A stretch of 64,000 bases of DNA from a candidate division SR1 bacterium (GTDB taxonomy: Bacteria > Patescibacteriota > Gracilibacteria > Absconditabacterales > Absconditicoccaceae). The notes beneath the pieces are model-generated. The model made no database searches, was not told the DNA's origin, and saw nothing but the letters and a program-made list of their open reading frames with translations. The DNA lies in NCBI GenBank assembly GCA_026397475.1, contig JAPLUT010000008.1, positions 1 to 64,000 on the forward strand. Direction: 5' to 3'. Positions within the stretch are counted from its first letter, which is position 1; each line of letters starts with the position of its first letter. Both the position numbers and the translations under genes were made by a program. Shown here in pieces: positions 7,676 to 49,424 of the stretch.

Positions 7676-7800
7676 TCTCTGTCCTCCTTTTTAAAGGAGG
7701 AGGTATCCGCATTTTGCGGATGGAGGATTTAAGAGCAAATTGTCTTACAAATCCCTCTGCCTTCGGCCTCTCCCTTTACAAAGGGAGACAAAATCTTGGT
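7676..7800. repeat. Two opposed copies of a palindromic repeat
   Basis: Copy one (about 7678-7732) reads GTCCTCC, a short loop, AAAGGAGG, then a second stem ATCCGCA/TGCGGAT and the end GGAGGATTT. Copy two (about 7744-7796) is the same design in reverse complement: AAATCCCTC, stem GCCTTCGGC, then CTCCCTTT/AAAGGGAG and GAC. The second stems differ in sequence but keep pairing. The same element occurs twice inside the DGR reverse transcriptase gene (29564-29611 and 30108-30199). The rest of 7582-7841, between tex and nrtR, holds no gene I can see. Confidence 0.8.
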
Positions 7801-24475: not shown

Positions 24476-26086
24476 TTATGTTAGCACTCAAATGCATTCA
24501 ATATGATGAGTTTGAGGAAACATATCCACAGGCTGGATTTCCTTGATACTAAATCATCATTCAATCAGCAATTCAATATCTCTTACCATAGTAACGGGAT
24601 TACAAGATATATATAACAACTTAAAATCTGATTCTTTTTTGAGATCACAAATCATTTGAACGACATTTTTATGGAGACCATCTCTTGGCGGATCGATGAT
24701 GACGAGACCAAGATTATTTAGTTTATCTTTTATTTCTGGTGTTTTCGTAAAGGCTTTTTCTGCTGGATTAGCAAGAAAAACTACCTTACTTTCTAGTCCA
24801 TTTATTTTTGCATTGTACCATGCATCTTGAATTGCTTCCTCGACAATTTCTATTCCGACAAGCTTAGAACCTTTACCAGTTTTGAGAAAACTAATTCCAA
24901 TAGTTCCTGTTCCACAGTAAAGATCGAGTATCATTCCTTCGATATGTCCGACCATCTTCATTGCCTGACCAAAAAGTTGTTGTGCTCAGAGGGTATTCGT
25001 TTGGAAAAAAGAAAAAGGAGAAACTCTAAAAGACACAGCCTCATCAGCCGCCTTTTGTCCTTCGCCAAAGATAAGTTTCTCGTAAATAAATCCATCTCCT
25101 CGCAAAGTTTCTGTCTTACAGTCTTGCGACCTCACGACATCAGCTAGACTGTTATTATACGTTATAACAAAGCTCGTTACCTTCTCTTTCAAGAGAGTAT
25201 CATTTTTAAATATTTCAAGAAGGTCTTTTCGTTGTTGAACTTTCCTCTCTTTCAAATCATGATCGGAAACAGAAAGATTAACCAAAAATTGTTTGGTATT
25301 TGTTCCTTCTCTAATCACTAAATGCCTAAAAAACCCCTGATGCGTCATCTGGTCATGGACGGGGAGTTCAGATGTTCTGCAGAGTTCTTTGATATGATCA
25401 AATATCTCATTTGCTCCATCAGAAATAAGCCCACAGCTATCGATATCTATAATCTTGCTAAACTCACCCTGCTTATGAAAGCCTACGCTCCAGTCTGAAA
25501 GGACTAGATTGGACCCAGGAACTTGGGACTTGGGACTAGGACTCTCTATATTTGTACTAGTTTTATTCTCCTTGTTCCTCGTCCCTTGTTCCTCGTCCCT
25601 TGTCCCTCATCCCTTCGTGATGTATTTTCCAAAGCTAAATTCTATTTTATTTCTATAATTCTTTTCACTAGGAGATCAGATCATAGACAATATTGTGAGC
25701 TCGGGGAGCTTCCTTTTTATCTTGGTAAATGCATCGTTAACAATATCTTCCTTGAGTTGCATCTGATTTTTGTAACTTAACATCTGCCATTTACACCCAC
25801 CACATCCGATCTTTCGGGGTTGCTTATTTTCATCATTGGACGAAAGCAAAGAAAAAAAATGCGGACAAAAAACCTTCCCATCGACAATCTTGGGATCGAG
25901 TTCTTGGATACGAGTAATATGTGCTTCTACATAATCTTTCTTTTGTTTCACTATTCTCAAATCTACAATACTTCCCGGAAGAGCGCCTCATTTAATCAAT
26001 ATTCTTTTTCCATCGCTCATCCTTGCGAGTCCTACTCATCCGTATCCTATTTTATCTATTTTGATTCTGCTAAGTATTTTTGCCAT
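24476..26086 (-). CDS. RNA (uracil-5-)-methyltransferase, RlmD/TrmA family
   Basis: A 536-aa SAM-dependent methyltransferase of the TrmA/RlmC/RlmD family. It starts with a TRAM-like domain (IKIDKIGYGVVGLARM). Cys residues in CPHF and IGCGGCKWQ could form the iron-sulfur site. The SAM motif is LDLYCGTGTIGISFL, followed by VGIEIVEEAIQDA, VIIDPPRDGLH and the catalytic Cys in LLYISCNPVTMVRD. Residues about 155-192 are a low-complexity insert. TGA joins four segments. It lies 16 bases after adenylate kinase. Confidence 0.88.
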
Positions 26087-26102
26087 CAAGAAAGGAGAAT
26101 AA

Positions 26103-27434: not shown

Positions 27435-27462
27435 TTGACAAATCATATAAAATATGTATAAT
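27435..27462 (+). promoter_or_regulatory. Promoter of the DGR target gene
   Basis: TTGACA and TATAAT are both consensus, with a 16-base spacer. The ATG of the target gene follows 33 bases after the -10 element. This is among the best promoter matches in the window. Confidence 0.8.
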
Positions 27463-27495
27463 GGAAAGGTAATTTTACTTTATCGCTCTACAATA

Positions 27496-28521
27496 ATGAC
27501 AAAAGCACAACAAACCGCTGACCAATACAATACTATAAGATTAGAACTAGTAAAAAAAGGTTCTGTCTTCGGAGAAGAGGCAAAAAACAAGAAGAAATTA
27601 GTTCTTGAGGCTTTGTCATGAGTTGAAGAAGCGGGTAAGTCAAAAGAGACCTCACACAAAGCAAAGGTAACGCTTACAAAGAAATTTAGAGAAGAAAATA
27701 AAAATCTTATAGCTGAGCACAAAAAGCTCGGGACAGAACATAGAAAAAACGAAGCAGTTTTTCAAGAACTTTTTGCAAAAGCAAAAGAATGAGGATTTAC
27801 TGATTTGGATGAAGAAACATTTAAAAATGCTATTTCATGAGACAGAGAATCGCTTTCGTGATTAGAAAATAGACTTCTCAAAAAAGAAAATATGGATGCT
27901 ATAGATAAAGCCAATATGAAAAAAACCTTGGATGACCTCAAAAGAAACGATATGCTCACGCTAGAAAACCTTCAGAAACTAGATAATAATCTTTCTTATA
28001 CTCCGACAGAAAGAATTATCAATGGAGTATATTTTTCTAGAACAAAATTTGTTCCTGATACTAAGTTCAATGATAAACCAAACAGTTATGGTGTGTTTGA
28101 GTGTGAATCAAGAGGCATATTAAAAGGTAAAGAAAAAGGAATATATAAGGCTATGTATAATGGTAATCCAGAGTACTATCTTAGCACAGATAAATATATA
28201 GAGCAAGCAGAGAAGCAATGAAAAAAAGCAATAAAGGACAGCGATATCAGGAAGGCGTTGCAATGAATGCCAGGAGATTTTTCAGACAATACACGATATA
28301 TTTGATGAAATATATTAGGTAATATTTTGGGTTTGTCAATGTCTGGCTGTGTAGATTCAGACGGTCAGCTCTATTACGGAGATGGATATGGATCTCTGAG
28401 TTCTGCTTCCCCAGTCCATAGCTACAATACGCGAGCGTTCACATTCAATGAGGATAAAGGTAAACTCTACAATAGCTACAGTAGATACGACGCTCGTCCG
28501 TGTCTGTTCCTGACAAAGTAA
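27496..28521 (+). CDS. DGR target protein with C-terminal variable domain
   Basis: A 341-aa protein diversified by the retroelement that follows. Residues 1 to about 170 are charged and helical, probably coiled coil. The C-terminal domain is likely of the C-type lectin/FGE-like fold used by DGR targets: GVYFSRTKFVPD, then the variable repeat at residues 284-341 (SSASPV, TRAF.FN, then DARPCLFLTK at the end). Sixteen codons of the repeat differ from the template. No signal peptide or membrane segment is seen, so display would need another route, or the target acts inside the cell. Stop is TAA directly after the repeat. Confidence 0.9.
28345..28518 (+). repeat. DGR variable repeat (VR)
   Basis: A 174-bp segment forming the 3' end of the target gene. 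It aligns without gaps to the template at 28877-29050. I count 19 differences, every one at a position where the template has A (A to G, C or T). The last 27 bases are identical, as expected of the initiation-of-homing region. Resulting changes include Asn to Tyr, His, Ser or Asp. Confidence 0.97.
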
Positions 28522-28876
28522 CTCCTGTCCCGCGAAGCGGGCTTGTCCGCCATTTTGGCGGAATTCGACTACCGAGCCGTAAGGCGAGGTCCTGCTTTTT
28601 AGCAGGGTTTGACTATTTCTTCAAAAAAATATCGATGAACAAAATGCAAAGCATTTTGTTCATTTTTTCTTATAGGTGTTTTGCCAGAGTCTGGTATCTT
28701 AACTCGACCACCAAAAAAGTATTCATTTTTTTGGATGTGAGAGGTACATTGCAGAGCAATGTACGGGATAACAGAGCGTGCATACAGGAGTTCAGTTGTA
28801 CTCCCGCAGTATTGCGGGAAGTCAAAGATTATATTATCGGTTACGATAGTATGACAAAGTGAGCTACAACATAATA
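28522..28876 (+). other. Hairpin-rich spacer between VR and TR
   Basis: No gene is apparent. Hairpins in order: CCCGC/GCGGG at 28529-28541, only ten bases after VR; TCCGCC/GGCGGA at 28546-28562; CCTGC/GCAGG at 28591-28606; a perfect 13-bp stem at 28635-28663 followed by T6, which looks like a terminator for the target gene; GTACATTGC/GCAATGTAC at 28744-28764; and TCCCGCA/TGCGGGA at 28802-28819. The first is placed like the VR-adjacent DNA hairpin needed for retrohoming in phage BPP-1. Confidence 0.75.
28635..28670 (+). terminator. Terminator of the DGR target gene
   Basis: ATGAACAAAATGC, loop AAA, GCATTTTGTTCAT, then TTTTT. It is a perfect 13-bp stem with a U-tract 114 bases after the target stop codon. 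It would separate target transcription from the template RNA. Confidence 0.75.
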
Positions 28877-29050
28877 GGCTATGTAGATTCAGACGGTAAA
28901 CTCTATAACAAAGATGAATATGGATATCTGAGTTCTGCTTCCCCAGTCAATAACAACAATACGCGAGCGTTCAAATTCAATAAGGATAAAGGTAAACTCA
29001 ACAATAAATACAATAGAAACAACGCTCGTCCGTGTCTGTTCCTGACAAAG
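28877..29050 (+). ncRNA. DGR template repeat (TR)
   Basis: A 174-bp non-coding copy of the VR, rich in AAC, AAT and AAA codons when read in the VR frame (KLYNKDEYGYL, VNNNNTRAFK, NNKYNRNNARP). It is transcribed and copied by the reverse transcriptase with adenine-specific errors. A GC-rich hairpin begins nine bases downstream and the RT gene 45 bases downstream. No long functional ORF covers it. Confidence 0.95.
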
Positions 29051-29058
29051 CACTCCTT

Positions 29059-29083
29059 CCCCCGCTTAGGCGGGGGTTTATTT
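29059..29083 (+). terminator. Hairpin with U-tract between TR and RT
   Basis: CCCCCGC, loop TTAG-like, GCGGGGG, then TTTATTTTTA. It looks like a rho-independent terminator or a 3' boundary of the template RNA. If it terminates, RT would be made only by read-through or from another promoter. Confidence 0.7.
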
Positions 29084-29095
29084 TTATACACTATT

Positions 29096-30427
29096 ATGTT
29101 AGACACAGATAAACTTTTAACTGACCTCTTCCAAGCATACTACGACACTCGTCAGCATAAAAGAAACACAAAAAGCGCTGTAGATTTTGAGATGAATTAC
29201 GAATCAAAGATAATTGACTTACGAAATGATTTGGTAAATTGAACCTACGTTATCAGTCCAAGTATTTGTTTCATTATCCAAGATCCCGTGCAAAGAGAAG
29301 TCTTTGCTGCTGATTTTCGTGACAGAATAGTTCATCACTTAATCTATAATTATATCTACGAGATATTCGATCGTCATTTCATTTACGATAGTTATAGTTG
29401 CAGATTAGAAAAATGAACGCATTTTGGAATCAAAAGAGTAGATCATTTCATTCGTTCATGTACGCAAAACTATACTCGTGATGCCTATATTCTCAAGCTC
29501 GACATCAAGTGATTTTTTATGCACATCGACAAACATATCTTGTTTGAAAAAATTAAATTTTTTTTGTCCTCCTTTTCCAAAGGAGGAGTACCACGAAGTG
29601 GGGGAGGATTTAAAAACAAACTTACTATTGATTGCGATTTCCTCATCAATCTTATTCATCAAGTTATTTTTCACGACTCAACCAAGAACTGCATCATAAA
29701 ATGAAAAAAGACTGATCGAGATTGATTGCCTGATGATAAAAGTTTGTTTCACTCTTCAAAAGATACGGGGCTTGCTATCGGCAACTTAACAAGTCAGTTA
29801 TTCGCGAATGTTTACTTGGATAGTTTGGACAAATACATCAAGTATGAACTTGGATTTTCGTACTATGGTAGATACGTAGATGATTTTATATTCATCGATA
29901 CCGATAAACAAAAATTACTTTCTGTTATCACAAAAATCAAAGATTTTCTCAGTGATAAGCTGCATCTTACGCTTCACCCCAAGAAGATATACTTCCAACA
30001 GTATTCGAAGTGAGTGCAATTTCTATGAGCATATATCAAACCCCACCGCACATATATTCGCAAAAGAACGATAGGAAATTTTTATAAAAGAATCCAGATA
30101 GTAAATAAATCCCTCTGCCTTCGGCATCTCCCTTCACAAAGGGAGAAAAATTTGTCCTCCTTTTGTAAAGGAGGGGAACCACGAAGTGGTGGAGGATTTG
30201 ATAAAGAACTAATTCAATCAGTGATAAATTCTTATCTATGAATTCTCAATCATTACAAAACCTTTAAAATTAGAAAAAAGGTGATTGGTAATTTTTTCAA
30301 TAAGTTTTGAAATAATTTCCACTTCACAAAAGCTTATACAAAAGCAATTCCCAATATCAGAAAGCTAAAAGAATCAGAAGTAAGAAAACTTTATTCTCAA
30401 TGATATTATAGTCGGCTACACAAATAA
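29096..30427 (+). CDS. DGR reverse transcriptase
   Basis: A 443-aa reverse transcriptase of the diversity-generating retroelement type. Motifs in order: RIVHHLIYNYI and FIYDSYSCRLEKGTHFG near the N-terminus, catalytic Asp136 in LKLDIKGFF, the DGR-type motif LAIGNLTSQ at 226-234 (SQ in place of the usual retroviral spacing), YVDD at 260-263, and LTLHPKKIYFQ with FLGAYI in the thumb-side region. Many TGA glycines join the frame. Two in-frame inserts derived from a palindromic repeat lie at residues 157-172 and about 338-368. It is followed by avd. Stop is TAA. Confidence 0.95.
29564..29611. repeat. Palindromic repeat inside the RT gene, copy 1
   Basis: 48 bases with stem CCTCCTTT/AAAGGAGG and a second small stem CCACGAAGTGG, ending GGAGGATTT. 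It is read in frame as LSSFSKGGVPRSGGGF (residues 157-172), between the catalytic Asp and the SQ motif. It is one of four related units; see 7676-7800 and 30108-30199. Confidence 0.85.
30108..30199. repeat. Palindromic repeat inside the RT gene, opposed pair
   Basis: The first part (30108-30147) is the element in reverse orientation: AAATCCCTC, stem GCCTTCGGC, CTCCCTT/AAGGGAG. The second (30152-30199) is forward and nearly identical to the copy at 29564: it encodes LSSFCKGGEPRSGGGF (residues 353-368). The whole pair is read in frame within the C-terminal half of the RT, in the same head-to-head layout seen between genes at 7676-7800. Confidence 0.85.
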
Positions 30428-30511
30428 ATCCGAAATATAATGAGGAATTATTGATGTAGCGACTACATAGTTTTCAATAAAAAAGTTATTTATCTTTTAA
30501 AAAACTATGCA

Positions 30512-30856
30512 ATGGCAACCTACGATAATCTGCCTGTTTACAAAGTTGCTTATGATTTGCTTCAGAAGTTGTTTTTAGTGGTGAGTGATTTTAAAAGAGA
30601 TTACAAATATACGCTCTGAGAAACAATAAAAAAAGAGGTTATCGACTTGATTATCTCTATTTACCCTGCAAATTCTCACAAAGAGAAAAAAGTATATCTC
30701 GAACAAGCGAGAGGTCATATTGAAGTTGTAAGGTTGTTGATGAGATTGTGTAAGGATCTCAGAGAAATTGACTTGAAAGAGTTTGTTCTTATCAATCAAA
30801 TGATTGAATCTATAAGTAAACAACTGACAGCTTGGGAAAGGGTAATGGTAAAATAG
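30512..30856 (+). CDS. avd: Avd-like DGR accessory protein
   Basis: A 114-aa, basic, all-helical protein in the position of accessory variability determinant. The pattern DNLPVYKVAYDLLQKLF, FKRDYKYTLGETIKKEVIDL, LEQARGHIEVVRLLMRLCKD and a final amphipathic helix fits the four-helix-bundle S23/Avd family. Avd binds the reverse transcriptase and template RNA and is needed for cDNA synthesis in studied DGRs. The start MATYDN was preferred to an ATG seven bases upstream in another frame. TGA encodes the Gly of TLGET. Confidence 0.9.
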
Positions 30857-30870
30857 AAACTCGTACCAAC

Positions 30871-30905
30871 AAAAAAACTCCTTTTCCAAGGAGCTTTCTT
30901 TTATA
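30871..30905. terminator. Bidirectional terminator between avd and rpsI
   Basis: AAACTCCTT, loop TTCC, AAGGAGCTTTCTTTT, preceded by a run of seven A. It can end both the DGR transcript and the minus-strand ribosomal transcript. The gap contains nothing else. Confidence 0.75.
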
Positions 30906-30973
30906 TGTCATAGGCGATTGATATTCGCCCCTACAAATCGTTCTATATTCCCATCGTTCAATCGTTCCAAAGT

Positions 30974-31396
30974 TTATCTCTTTGACCATGTAGGTCCTTT
31001 TCTCGCTTTTTTCAAACCTGGTTTCTTTCTTTCCTTGATTCTAGGATCTCTTTTGAGTAATCCATAAGGTTTCAAAGTAAGTCTAAGTTCAGCGTTCCAT
31101 TCGATCAATGCTCTTGCGATTCCTAGCTTGATAGCATCTGCTTGCCCTGATATTCCTCCACCATTGATAACAATCTCTGCGTCAAACTTTTTCAAGTAGT
31201 CGGCACCTAGGGTATTGAGGGGTGAAAGAGCGTTTTCGAGAAGATAAAGATTACCACCAAAATAGTCTGCTAATGGTTTTTTAGATCCATTAGAACTTTT
31301 GATGATGAAGCTTCCTGTTCCTTGTCCAAAAAGTTTAACAACAGCAGTTGTTTCTTTTCTTCTTCCTATAGCATAAGTATATTCTTTGTTAGCCAT
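30974..31396 (-). CDS. rpsI: Ribosomal protein S9
   Basis: A 140-aa uS9 protein of the small ribosomal subunit. It starts YTYAIGRRKETTAVVKL, has IVINGGGISGQADAIKLGIARAL and the basic tail KKARKGPTWSKR, which reaches the tRNA anticodon loop in known ribosomes. No TGA codon is used for its Gly residues. It is the last gene of the minus-strand ribosomal run, 28 bases after rplM. Confidence 0.96.
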   Translation of the reverse strand: MANKEYTYAIGRRKETTAVVKLFGQGTGSFIIKSSNGSKKPLADYFGGNLYLLENALSPLNTLGADYLKKFDAEIVINGGGISGQADAIKLGIARALIEWNAELRLTLKPYGLLKRDPRIKERKKPGLKKARKGPTWSKR

Positions 31397-45296: not shown

Positions 45297-48200
45297 TTAA
45301 TGACATGTTGCTAAGTGATCGTCCATTCTCATTCAAACACTTCAACTTCCTGCACTATTACAGAAACAATATTGTTGGTTTGCTGAGTCATAATATAATG
45401 TTCCTTCGGGATAATCAGTTGTATTACTACATACATTCACAGCAGTAGAAACGGCTTTAATACCACCAGCTACGGTAAGCATTGCTCATGGAGCAGTTGA
45501 TCCTGTTCCTATTCCAACTTTTCAATTTGTTAAAACAGTCATTGCATTTTCTCTATTTCATCCTGTTCCTATTCCTATTTCAAATATACTCGTATAAAGT
45601 CAGACATTATATCTTCCTATTGCCATAGAATAATCTCCGCTTGTTGTTCCATAAAACCCCATTGCTGTAGAATAGTTTCCTTCGGCATAAGCAGAATATC
45701 CGATTGCTGTAGAATTATATCAAACTGAGTAGGATTCATATCCTATTGCTGTAGAGAAGTCTGCAACCGCATGTGCTTTATATCCCATGGTGGTAGAATA
45801 TGATCATTCTGCTGTTGTATCACTTCCCATAGCTGTAGAGTAATTTCCGATTGCACTTGTGTTTGTTCCCATCGCCATAGATTCTTGTCCATTCGCTGTA
45901 GTGCTATTTCCCATAGTGGTTGATCCACTTCCATTCGCTGTTGTATTATTTCCCATCGCTAGAGAAAATTGTCCATTCGCCGTAGTAGCATTTCCTATCG
46001 CCATAGAATTAGTCCCGACTGCTGTAGTGTTGTTTCCCAATGTTGTGGAGTATCCTCCAAACGCAAGTGTTCCGATTCCCATTGCCATAGCATACGTTCA
46101 AAGGGATTGGTTATTATATCCCATCGCCATAGAAAACTTGACGCCATTCGCTAAAGAAAACTTTCCAATCGCTATAGCATCAGAAGCAATTGCTTGTGTC
46201 CTAGTACCCATTGCTATTGCATCATCTCCTGTAGCTTGTGCGCTAGCGCCCATTGCTATTGAGTCATTCCCATTTGCATGTGCACCATTACCCATCGCTG
46301 TAGAAGAAACTCCATTTGCATGTGATGAGTATCCCATCGCCGTGGAGTAATCTCAGAATGCTATAGTGTCATAACCCATCGCTGTAGCGACGGTTCAGCT
46401 AGCTATAGTGCCAGATCCCATCGCGGTAGATCCCCATCAATGTGTTGTCGTATTAACTCCTATTGCTGTGGAGTAATCTCCATATGTTGTAGCGCCATTT
46501 CCTATTGCTAGAGAATACAGTCAGTTTGTTGTCGTATCGTTCCCCATCGCTAGAGAATAGCCTTGTTTTGCAGATGCTTTATATCCCATTGCTGTTGAAA
46601 ATATTCCATTTGCGTTTACACCGTTTCCTTTGGAAATAACTCCATTGCTGTGGATACTTCCACTTACTTCAAGGGCATATCCTGCTGATATGCTATTCGT
46701 TCAAATAGCTACCGCTCCAGAGTTATAATAAATACTAGGCCCAGCTCACACTAGTAATCGTAGCGAAGTTCATGTACTCGCAGAACCGCCTGTAGGCCAA
46801 GTTGTTCTACAATCGCCCAACATACAAAGTGTATTAAAGTTACCTGTTCCATTTACTTCAAATGTATATCATGGAGCTGCTGTTGCGATACCAATTCTTC
46901 AGTTGTTTAAAACGGTCATTGCATTTGCTTCATTTCAAAATCAACTTCCTATTCCTATTTCAAATACGCTTCCGGTAAGTCAAATATTATGTGCACCTAT
47001 CGCTAGAGAATAATCGCCATTACTTATGGTGTCACTTCCCATTGTCATAGATGCAACCCCATTTGCTTGCGTATTGTATCCCATTGCAATAGATGCGACA
47101 CCATTTGCGATTGTGCCATTTCCCATCGCTAGAGAATTTCTTCCACTTGCGCTTGTGGCTTCTCCTATTGCTGTAGAATAATCTCCTCACGCTATTGCTC
47201 CTTTTCCTATTGCCATAGAGCTATCTCCATTTGCTTGTGAGCTAGATCATCATGCGATAGCATATGATCAATTCGCCTGAGTACTTCATCCCATCGCTGT
47301 AGAAACATATCATATTGCGCTTGATCCTATTCCCATAGCTACAGATGCTTGTCCATTTGCTTGTGTCCAGTTTCCCATAGCCGTAGAGTACGCTCCACTT
47401 GCGCTTGTATTGTATCCCATCGCTGTAGAAAAATTTCCACTTGCTATTGTATATTCTCCCATGGCTGTTGAAGAGCCGCCACTTGCAGTTGTGTTATTTC
47501 CCATAGCTGTTGAATAATCTCCCTGTGCAGTTGTATTATTTCCCATGGCTGTTGAAGAGCCGCCACTTGCAGTTGTGCTATTTCCCATAGCTGTTGAAAA
47601 AACTCCATTCGCATGGGTATTGTATCCCATAGCTGTTGATTGATTCCCATTAGCTATTGAATCATATCCGATCGCTATAGAAGAGTCTCCATTTGCAGTT
47701 GTATGATATCCCATTGTTATAGAGTAAGATCATCTTGCATAGGTATTGCTTCCCATTGCTGTAGATCGATTTCCTCATCATGTCGTATTGTTTCCCATCG
47801 CTGTTGAAAAAAATCCTTGTGCATAAGTATTGTTTCCCATTGCCGTAGAAGAGTCTCCATACGCCATAGTGCCAGATCCCATTGCTGTAGATCCCCATCC
47901 ATTTGCAGTTGTATTGTTTCCCATCGCAGTAGAATAATATCCCTGTGCTATAGTGCGATTACCGATTGCTGTAGAGTAGTCTCCATTTGCTTGTGTATCT
48001 TTCCCCATCGCTGTTGAAAATATTCCATTTGCGATTGCGCCATCTCCTTTGGAAACAAATCCATTACTGTGAATGCTTCCACTTACTTCAAGAGCGAATC
48101 CTGCAGTTACACCACTTGTTCCGATAGCGACAGCTCCAGATTTATAATAGATATTCGCGCCTGCTCACAATAACCATAGTGATGTTCATGTGCTTGCAGC

Positions 48201-49424
48201 ACTTCCTGTAGGCCAAGTTGTTCTACATACCCCCAACATACAAAGTACATTAAAATTACCGGTTCCATTTACTTCAAAGGTATATCATGGAGCTGTTGTT
48301 GCGATGCCCACTCTTCAGTTATTTAAAACCGTCATTGCATTTATTTGTCCAAAATCAGGATTTCCAATACCTATTTCAAAGATACTATTAGTGACTCCTA
48401 TGTTGTAGTTTCCTATGGCAAGAGATCATGTCCCTATTGCCACTGTTGTATCTCCCATCGCTGTGGAATAATTTCCCTGCGCGCTTGTGTTGTTTCCCAT
48501 AGCAGTAGAATAATTTCCTAATGCATTACTAGTACCCATTGCTGTAGAGTAGATTCAACTTGAATATGCTGCTCCTATGGCTGTGGAATAATCGCCAACT
48601 GCAGAACTTTGTCCGATTGCTGTAGAATAAATTCCATATGCCCAACTTTGTCCCATGGCAGTAGAATAAGACCCTATCGCCGTAGAATATTGTCCCATCG
48701 CTGTGGAGTAATCTCCCATTGCTTCCGTGTTTTCTCCCATTGCTGTAGCGCTTACTCATGTGGCTTGAGAGCCATTACCCATGGCAGTAGAATAATTCCC
48801 GTTTGCTCTTGTTGCATTACCCATTGCCGTAGACGTATCGCCATTTGCTTTTGTGCCATTACCCATTGCCGTAGAGTACGCTCCACTTGCTATGGTATTT
48901 GTTCCGATTGCTGTAGAATTATATCATTTCGCTTGTGTTGAATTTCCGATTGCTGTAGAGTAGTCTCAATTTGCATGTGCACTATTACCCATCGCTAAAG
49001 AATTACTTCAAAAGGAAATATCTCCATATCCGATTGTTGTAGAAAAATCTCAATATGCCGCACTCCAGTTTCCTATGGCTATAGAATATGTTCCTCATAC
49101 CCATGTTCCATTTCCCATCGCTGTAGAGTAGTCTCCCATTGCCGTGGTACCATTTCCTATTGCTGTTGTATTTACTCCTGATATAGCTGCTCCAACGCCT
49201 TTGGTGATAAGTCAGTTGCTATATATGCTTCCATCAGTTCATTCCAAGATGATCCCAGTAATCCCACTCGCTGATCAGTCATCAGAAAGTACGATACGTT
49301 GGATGTATTGGACAGAGTTTAACAATGTCGTATCTATGTTTGTGGTGCTTGCGTATACGCCAAAAGTGCTGACAAGAAGTCCTCCAGCAAATAGAGCAAG
49401 GTATTTTAATTTATTCGTCTTCAT
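45297..49424 (-). CDS. Giant adhesin with YadA-type head repeats
   Basis: A 1375-aa surface protein. It starts MKTNKLKYLALFAGGLLVST and FGVYAS (signal peptide). Most of the length is a 14-residue repeat of the form STAMGNNTTANGGY, the head motif of trimeric adhesins such as YadA and Hia (A-x-G-x-x-S/T-x-A-x-G). Three non-repeat cassettes interrupt it, each with NAMTVL.NG.VGI and YTFEVNGTGNFNVLCMLG, near 48400, 46980 and 45600. The C-terminus has YPEGTLYYDSANQQYCFC and ends without a membrane beta-barrel. The partner SLH-like protein may anchor it. TGA glycines run throughout. Stop is TAA at 45297. Confidence 0.85.

Follow-up and report, generated by a model that had tools for sequence, protein, structure and literature searches.

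In-frame palindromic inserts in a retroelement reverse transcriptase of an SR1 bacterium and their probable relationship to DUF559 nuclease elements

Two loops in the reverse transcriptase (RT) of a diversity-generating retroelement (DGR) from an uncultured candidate division SR1 bacterium are likely to be copies of a small mobile element of palindromic build that were inserted in frame, a reading given a probability of about 0.78. The wider explanation, in which elements encoding a DUF559 protein are the parent of these palindromes, is held overall with the same confidence; no movement has been observed. The source genome is 1.17 Mb in size, and the stretch of DNA analysed here, referred to as the window, comprises 64,000 nt (positions 1-64000 of its contig).

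The DGR lies at 27.4-30.9 kb of the window and consists of a variable repeat (VR), a template repeat (TR), the RT and an Avd-like protein, all on the plus strand. The VR (28345-28518, repeat family D5) forms the 3' end of the target gene at 27454-28521, and the TR (28877-29050) was identified by repeat search and TR/VR comparison. The RT, which is host to both insertions, occupies 29096-30427 and is 443 amino acids long under translation table 25, reading from ATG at 29096 to a stop codon at 30425-30427, with a match to RVT_1 (PF00078, E 5.5e-14). It is followed by the Avd-like accessory protein at 30440-30856 (PF22296, bAvd, E 4.6e-13). The RT and its neighbouring genes are open over their full length only if TGA is read as glycine (code 25). 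The locus satisfies the criteria for a DGR, namely adenine-specific changes from TR to VR, a bAvd protein and the DGR RT fold; the five best Foldseek matches to a model of the RT are DGR RT structures (8ub7-8ubf). In the first 174 positions of the TR/VR alignment all 19 of 19 mismatches fall at TR adenines, and the DGR therefore appears to be in use. The limit of 174 positions was set after it had been noticed that, of the 189 positions aligned, the final 15 contain the remaining seven mismatches. Comparison with the nearest relative shows purifying selection on the RT outside the inserts (dN/dS about 0.07 over 385 codons, with dS about 2 and thus near saturation), and this selection gives no date for the insertions.

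The first insertion is a single palindromic unit, unit A, at 29564-29611 on the plus strand, identified by match to the unit pattern and translated as residues 157-172 (LSSFSKGGVPRSGGGF). The second is an opposed pair spanning 30107-30199, composed of a unit B on the minus strand at 30107-30146 (residues about 338-351, found by pattern and unit extraction) and a unit A on the plus strand at 30152-30199, again a match to the unit pattern (residues 353-368, LSSFCKGGEPRSGGGF). All three units are translated in frame, and the two insertion sites share 85% DNA identity over 60 nt. The opposed unit B in the RT is without the TTGTC end that is possessed by the intergenic copies. Neither insert is present in any of the nine other full-length RT ORFs obtained from a search of 49 genomes, and both are likewise absent at the DNA level from the nearest of these, L018, a same-genus sequence whose genome (G008) has no unit match. 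Compared by eye with L018, the RT has gained a net 36 and 78 nt, or 12 and 26 residues, at the two sites, where about six and about five ancestral codons, respectively, have been replaced. Both positions are variable in length among RTs, and longer, unrelated loops are found in L025 at the first site and in L021 at the second. An AlphaFold model of the RT built with ten sequences has a mean pLDDT of 73.5, with values below 50 at 165-174 and 341-367, in the insert regions, and in five other stretches.

Most of what had been predicted from the letters of the window alone was borne out. The coordinates, frame and two peptides held under table 25, as did the opposed unit before the second peptide and the presence of the same design between genes at 7676-7800, where a composite has unit A at 7682-7730 on the plus strand (found by unit extraction) and an opposed unit B at 7749-7791 on the minus strand, its TTGTC end outward (pattern and unit extraction). 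The reading of the RT segments as repeat-derived loops held as well, since related RTs lack the inserts and 29 copies occur in the source genome; the presence of the same residues in related RTs, or a lack of other genomic copies, had been set beforehand as refuting it, and neither condition applied. The claim that unit lengths keep the frame failed as stated, since a multiple of three is seen only in the net gain relative to L018. The description of the RT as an essential polymerase held in part: within the DGR the RT has a central place, and there is no evidence that it is essential to the cell. The proposed check on surface loops by modelling placed the inserts in low-confidence stretches, of which the model has five others.

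The palindromic unit is about 43-60 bp long, with distinct units differing in length, and is made up of two hairpins and a tail: the first hairpin reads YYCCTTT-loop-AAAGGRR, the second varies in sequence, and the tail is GRRGGATTT. From 73 stretches fetched around unit matches, 80 distinct units were taken; the second stem reaches 4 bp or more in 70 of these, whereas only 12.6% of shuffles do so. Open frames number 375 of 480 under table 25 and 348 of 480 under table 11, while shuffled units give 59% under table 25. Copies are dispersed through the source genome, with 29 exact matches (15 forward and 14 reverse), and these are not due to chance because the pattern read backwards has no match there; it has none in all 49 genomes of the order either. 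The unit pattern is matched in 16 of these 49 genomes, and across the whole genome collection in 78 stretches, chiefly from SR1/Gracilibacteria-type records with some scattered in other phyla. Most unit clusters are intergenic. A phage origin of the units was rejected, the pattern matching no stretch in viral contigs, and so was a known RNA family: Rfam gave five matches within 28500-31000, all below the gathering score (E 0.0012 to 0.39) and none covering the units, and no match at the gathering score in five loci. A probe, GGTGGGGTTCCCCG, which was a mistaken guess at the unit sequence, returned no matches.

Units in frame are not confined to the RT. ComF of the source genome contains a composite and RsmH a unit, both in frame, and alignments show this unit to be absent from 13 other ComF and 14 other RsmH proteins. 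Among the related ComF rows only the row of the source genome spans the insert; an extra row returned by this search from G007 (C6:38045-38245) is a composite located elsewhere in that genome. The RsmH rows of relatives are interrupted at the insert, with the exception of one row from G009, which bridges it and is 17 residues shorter. Eight further ORFs with in-frame units were found in other genomes, seven of which belong to a Pfam host family (UPF0489, pyruvate formate lyase, RsmI-like TP_methylase, ABC-F, GatB, methyltransferase and RsmB/F), and the eighth, L204, has no Pfam match. In total, 10 of the 73 fetched stretches, the RT, ComF and RsmH included, have a host that is recognised by Pfam and extends for 40 residues or more on either side of the unit. 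Left out of this count are L095 and L178, whose unit-bearing ORFs look spurious, and L209, which contains Ns and has no family scan. The loop of ComF that carries the composite may possibly be a preferred spot for insertion. By eye, three of the 13 other ComF proteins, L303 (G005), L310 (G036) and L305 (G044), have different repeat-like peptides at approximately the same loop. DUF559 genes adjoin comF in two sibling species (G005:C39 and G009:C38), and the comF of the source genome holds an ORF-less composite inside.

The original prediction gave no origin for the units; the evidence now points to DUF559 elements. Two elements of about 0.5 kb in the source genome, L062 and L063, have the structure unit B, DUF559 ORF and opposed unit A, which is also the geometry of the ORF-less composites. 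Their boundaries are exact, the two being alike from TTGTC to GACAA and unrelated beyond. The site of the L062 element, downstream of dnaG (identified by eye from its translation), is empty in G006 and G009, where the flanks resume within about 15 nt. The element is also missing from the 330 nt displayed for three more sibling loci, but these have no alignable close right flank. DUF559 is represented in the order by 61 matches in 28 of the 49 genomes, corresponding to 60 genes after the second piece of a split gene in G008:C61 had been merged. It is present in all 16 unit-positive genomes versus 12 of the 33 unit-negative ones (Fisher p 9.5e-6, uncorrected for phylogeny).

Units matching the strict pattern are located within 200 bp and point outward at 16 of the 60 DUF559 genes, on both sides in seven of them, against 0 of 384 random windows. 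A second test used no unit sequence except the pyrimidine-rich first arm and was accompanied by orientation and ORF controls. Outward pyrimidine-first hairpins were found on both sides of 26 of the 60 DUF559 genes of the order and on at least one side of 47, whereas both-sided outward hairpins occur in only 3 of 591 random windows and at 2 of 188 other ORFs. None of the 60 genes has wrongly oriented hairpins on each of its two sides. Outward hairpins are missing on one or both sides in 34 of the 60 genes, 13 of which have none. In a phylum sample of 286 genomes, which returned 30 DUF559 loci, 23 of the 30 have outward hairpins on both sides versus 0 of 449 random windows. Direct comparison of left with right flanks placed none of the 60 DUF559 genes above the 99th percentile of mismatched flanks, the medians being 11 versus 9 for the mismatched set, which shares repeat families. 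A model of the DUF559 protein (pLDDT 85) matched by Foldseek 3hrl (E 1.5e-7), the catalytic domain of I-Bth0305I (3r3p, E 2.4e-4) and, weakly, Vsr (1vsr, E 0.067). DUF559 thereby satisfies, by structural model match, the fold criterion for an EDxHD/Vsr-type homing endonuclease; cutting and homing are inferred. In a Geobacter MAG (L109:5280-6428), a linker of unit-like peptides connects a DUF559 domain in frame with a Cas4 protein.

DUF559 itself is found within host enzymes. In 14 of the 60 genes the domain is embedded in frame in a longer host ORF, of which 128 residues or more precede it. Thirteen of these hosts were scanned for families and comprise RimO, LeuRS (three), LepA, MnmA (three), MurC, TGT, Elp3, Fmt and PrmC, while the fourteenth, L240, was recognised by reading, outside the family scan, as a second LepA. 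Stretches of the host family are present on both sides of DUF559, and for some hosts coordinates are available for the best stretch only. No intein-splicing family was detected at E<=0.001 in the 13 nested proteins scanned, L240 being left out. The fmt gene of the source genome carries a nested DUF559, and in seven of eight same-genus genomes an fmt without DUF559 was located. The DUF559 segment of this fmt shares 77-79% DNA identity over about 480-510 bp with lepA segments of G007, and related elements therefore occupy different genes in sibling species. At the place of DUF559, the fmt of G006 (L358) has by eye a different, alpha/beta-hydrolase-like segment. Other domains nested in frame were observed in two LeuRS proteins, L213 having a NUDIX domain and L226 an Abhydrolase_6 match.

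The proposed mechanism starts from a full element of about 0.5 kb with TTGTC and GACAA as its tips, in which a short ORF encoding a DUF559 nuclease would lie between unit B and an inverted unit A. The composites of about 110-130 bp (B-linker-A) would be the full element minus its ORF, and the single or paired units of the RT may be still shorter remnants or solo ends. The DUF559 protein, as a putative Vsr/EDxHD-type nuclease, would recognise the folded end units and cut DNA at or near them, repair would copy the element into the break, and ORF-less forms would be served in trans. With no intron or intein, insertions within genes would persist only where they are in frame and the loop tolerates them. 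Stop codons are scarce in the unit, and the reading of TGA as glycine may be a slight help. That DUF559 moves the units and does the cutting, that the ends are its substrate, that copying proceeds by repair and that the host proteins stay active are all inferred and have not been shown. No target-site duplication could be recognised by eye in the flanks, which are A+T-rich, in the junctions or in the empty sites, and the junctions hold extra or replaced bases; the chemistry of insertion is for these reasons unknown. The mechanism does not account for the failure to recognise a target-site duplication, for the replacement of bases where the inserts join the RT or for the origin of its inside-out B-A pair.

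Three rival explanations were considered. The one that survives best, itself unlikely, regards the units as REP/MITE-like sequences moved by a Y1/RAYT-like tyrosine transposase, with the DUF559 genes as passengers that landed between units. In its favour, the source genome has one PF01797 match (L016), and REPs linked to RAYTs occur inside ORFs (PMC3733652). Against it, the Y1 locus L016 carries repeats of another kind and none of the units within the 3.35 kb examined, paired outward hairpins accompany DUF559 genes in both the order and the phylum samples, and DUF559 together with both units forms a single dispersed repeat with exact tips. The criterion for a REPtron, units flanking a Y1 transposase, is accordingly not fulfilled at L016. 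Just upstream of this transposase gene there is a short duplicated sequence of its own, which does not resemble the units. The second rival, very unlikely, takes the units as RNA- or terminator-like regulatory elements between genes, their copies inside genes being rare recombination accidents rather than transposition. The mostly intergenic position of the unit clusters and the retention of the second hairpin despite its varied sequence speak for it, while the empty sites after dnaG, the in-frame copies in ten Pfam-recognised host loci and the lack of any Rfam match at the gathering score speak against it. Finally, the view that the two segments reflect nothing more than the usual loop variation among DGR RTs and resemble the repeat by chance, which the length variation at both positions and the long loops of L025 and L021 would allow, is all but excluded by the DNA identity between the two RT sites, by the recurrence of the stem sequence outside the RT in DNA-level copies and by the absence of the peptides from every other RT.

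The mobile-element reading, with DUF559 elements as parent, may be compared with four known systems. The nearest known kind is provisionally that of the Rickettsia palindromic elements (RPEs), which are also short palindromes found in frame in unrelated, presumably working proteins as well as between genes (PMC10969869, PMC3733652). The RPE-type criterion of a palindrome in frame in unrelated genes is fulfilled by the RT, ComF, RsmH and others, no RPE sequence having been compared. RPEs differ in being about 150 bp long according to review, against units of about 43-60 bp plus composites here, and the present elements belong to another phylum with another genetic code and have a nuclease-coding parent with the same ends. 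REPtrons likewise have palindromes around an enzyme gene, paired inverted units and many enzyme-less copies, some inside ORFs (PMC3733652), and REPs inside ORFs are known from several bacteria (PMC3733652). They differ in that a DUF559 nuclease here replaces the Y1 transposase, the ends are TTGTC and ATTT instead of GTAG/CGTC tags (PMC3733652), and the enzyme itself can sit in frame within host proteins. With I-Bth0305I, other EDxHD homing endonucleases and inteins the elements share the nuclease fold and the location of mobile nuclease genes in conserved genes, but they differ in having palindromic ends and numerous copies devoid of an ORF, and in lacking an intron or intein, with no splicing domain in the 13 nested proteins scanned. 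Similarities to bacterial MITEs are the shortness, inverted ends, longer ORF-bearing relative and many dispersed copies; the MITE criterion of non-coding inverted ends plus a same-ended relative is fulfilled by the composites and L062/L063, the autonomy of the relative being inferred. In contrast to MITEs, the ends consist of hairpin units and the parent has no known transposase family; nor could a target-site duplication be recognised by eye in the A+T-rich flanks.

A DUF559 gene has been assigned to the EDxHD homing family (PMC9403480). Of other papers on DUF559, one reports repeated segments in which it accompanies a transposase, one calls the domain Vsr-like and one notes that it can be fused with a SPOUT methyltransferase. 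None of these accounts mentions palindromic ends or copies that have lost the ORF, and searches of the open-access literature returned no description of such elements. The link to a nuclease thus seems new, and its novelty is provisional because subscription papers and most preprints lay outside the search. In-frame palindromic inserts are known mainly from Rickettsia, with no mobilising enzyme named (PMC10969869, PMC3733652), and their occurrence here, in a recoded lineage far from Rickettsia and alongside a nuclease that is a candidate for mobilising them, makes the mover of protein-coding palindromes directly testable. It would give a role to DUF559, a common family of unknown function, and suggests that LeuRS, MnmA, LepA and the DGR RT can bear mobile DNA as translated loops. 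A bolder reading, which could equally well prove right or wrong, is that DUF559 elements constitute a widespread, undescribed class of mobile elements. These would consist of a Vsr/EDxHD-type nuclease bounded by palindromic units, enter genes in frame and persist unspliced, either as a nested nuclease domain in essential enzymes or, once the ORF is lost, as palindrome-coded loops. Their offspring would include many of the C-rich palindromic repeats seen in Patescibacteria and in other phyla, among them the two loops of the DGR RT.

Two further repeat-like features were observed in the window. A methyltransferase-like protein encoded on the minus strand at 24476-26089 has a repeat-like segment (TRDEEQGTRNKE...), and peptides similar to this segment are also found near the RsmH insertion site in siblings. 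At about 45500-49200 there is a long array of 42-nt repeats, each coding for 14 residues, with 47 copies in one family, which probably represents a repetitive surface protein.
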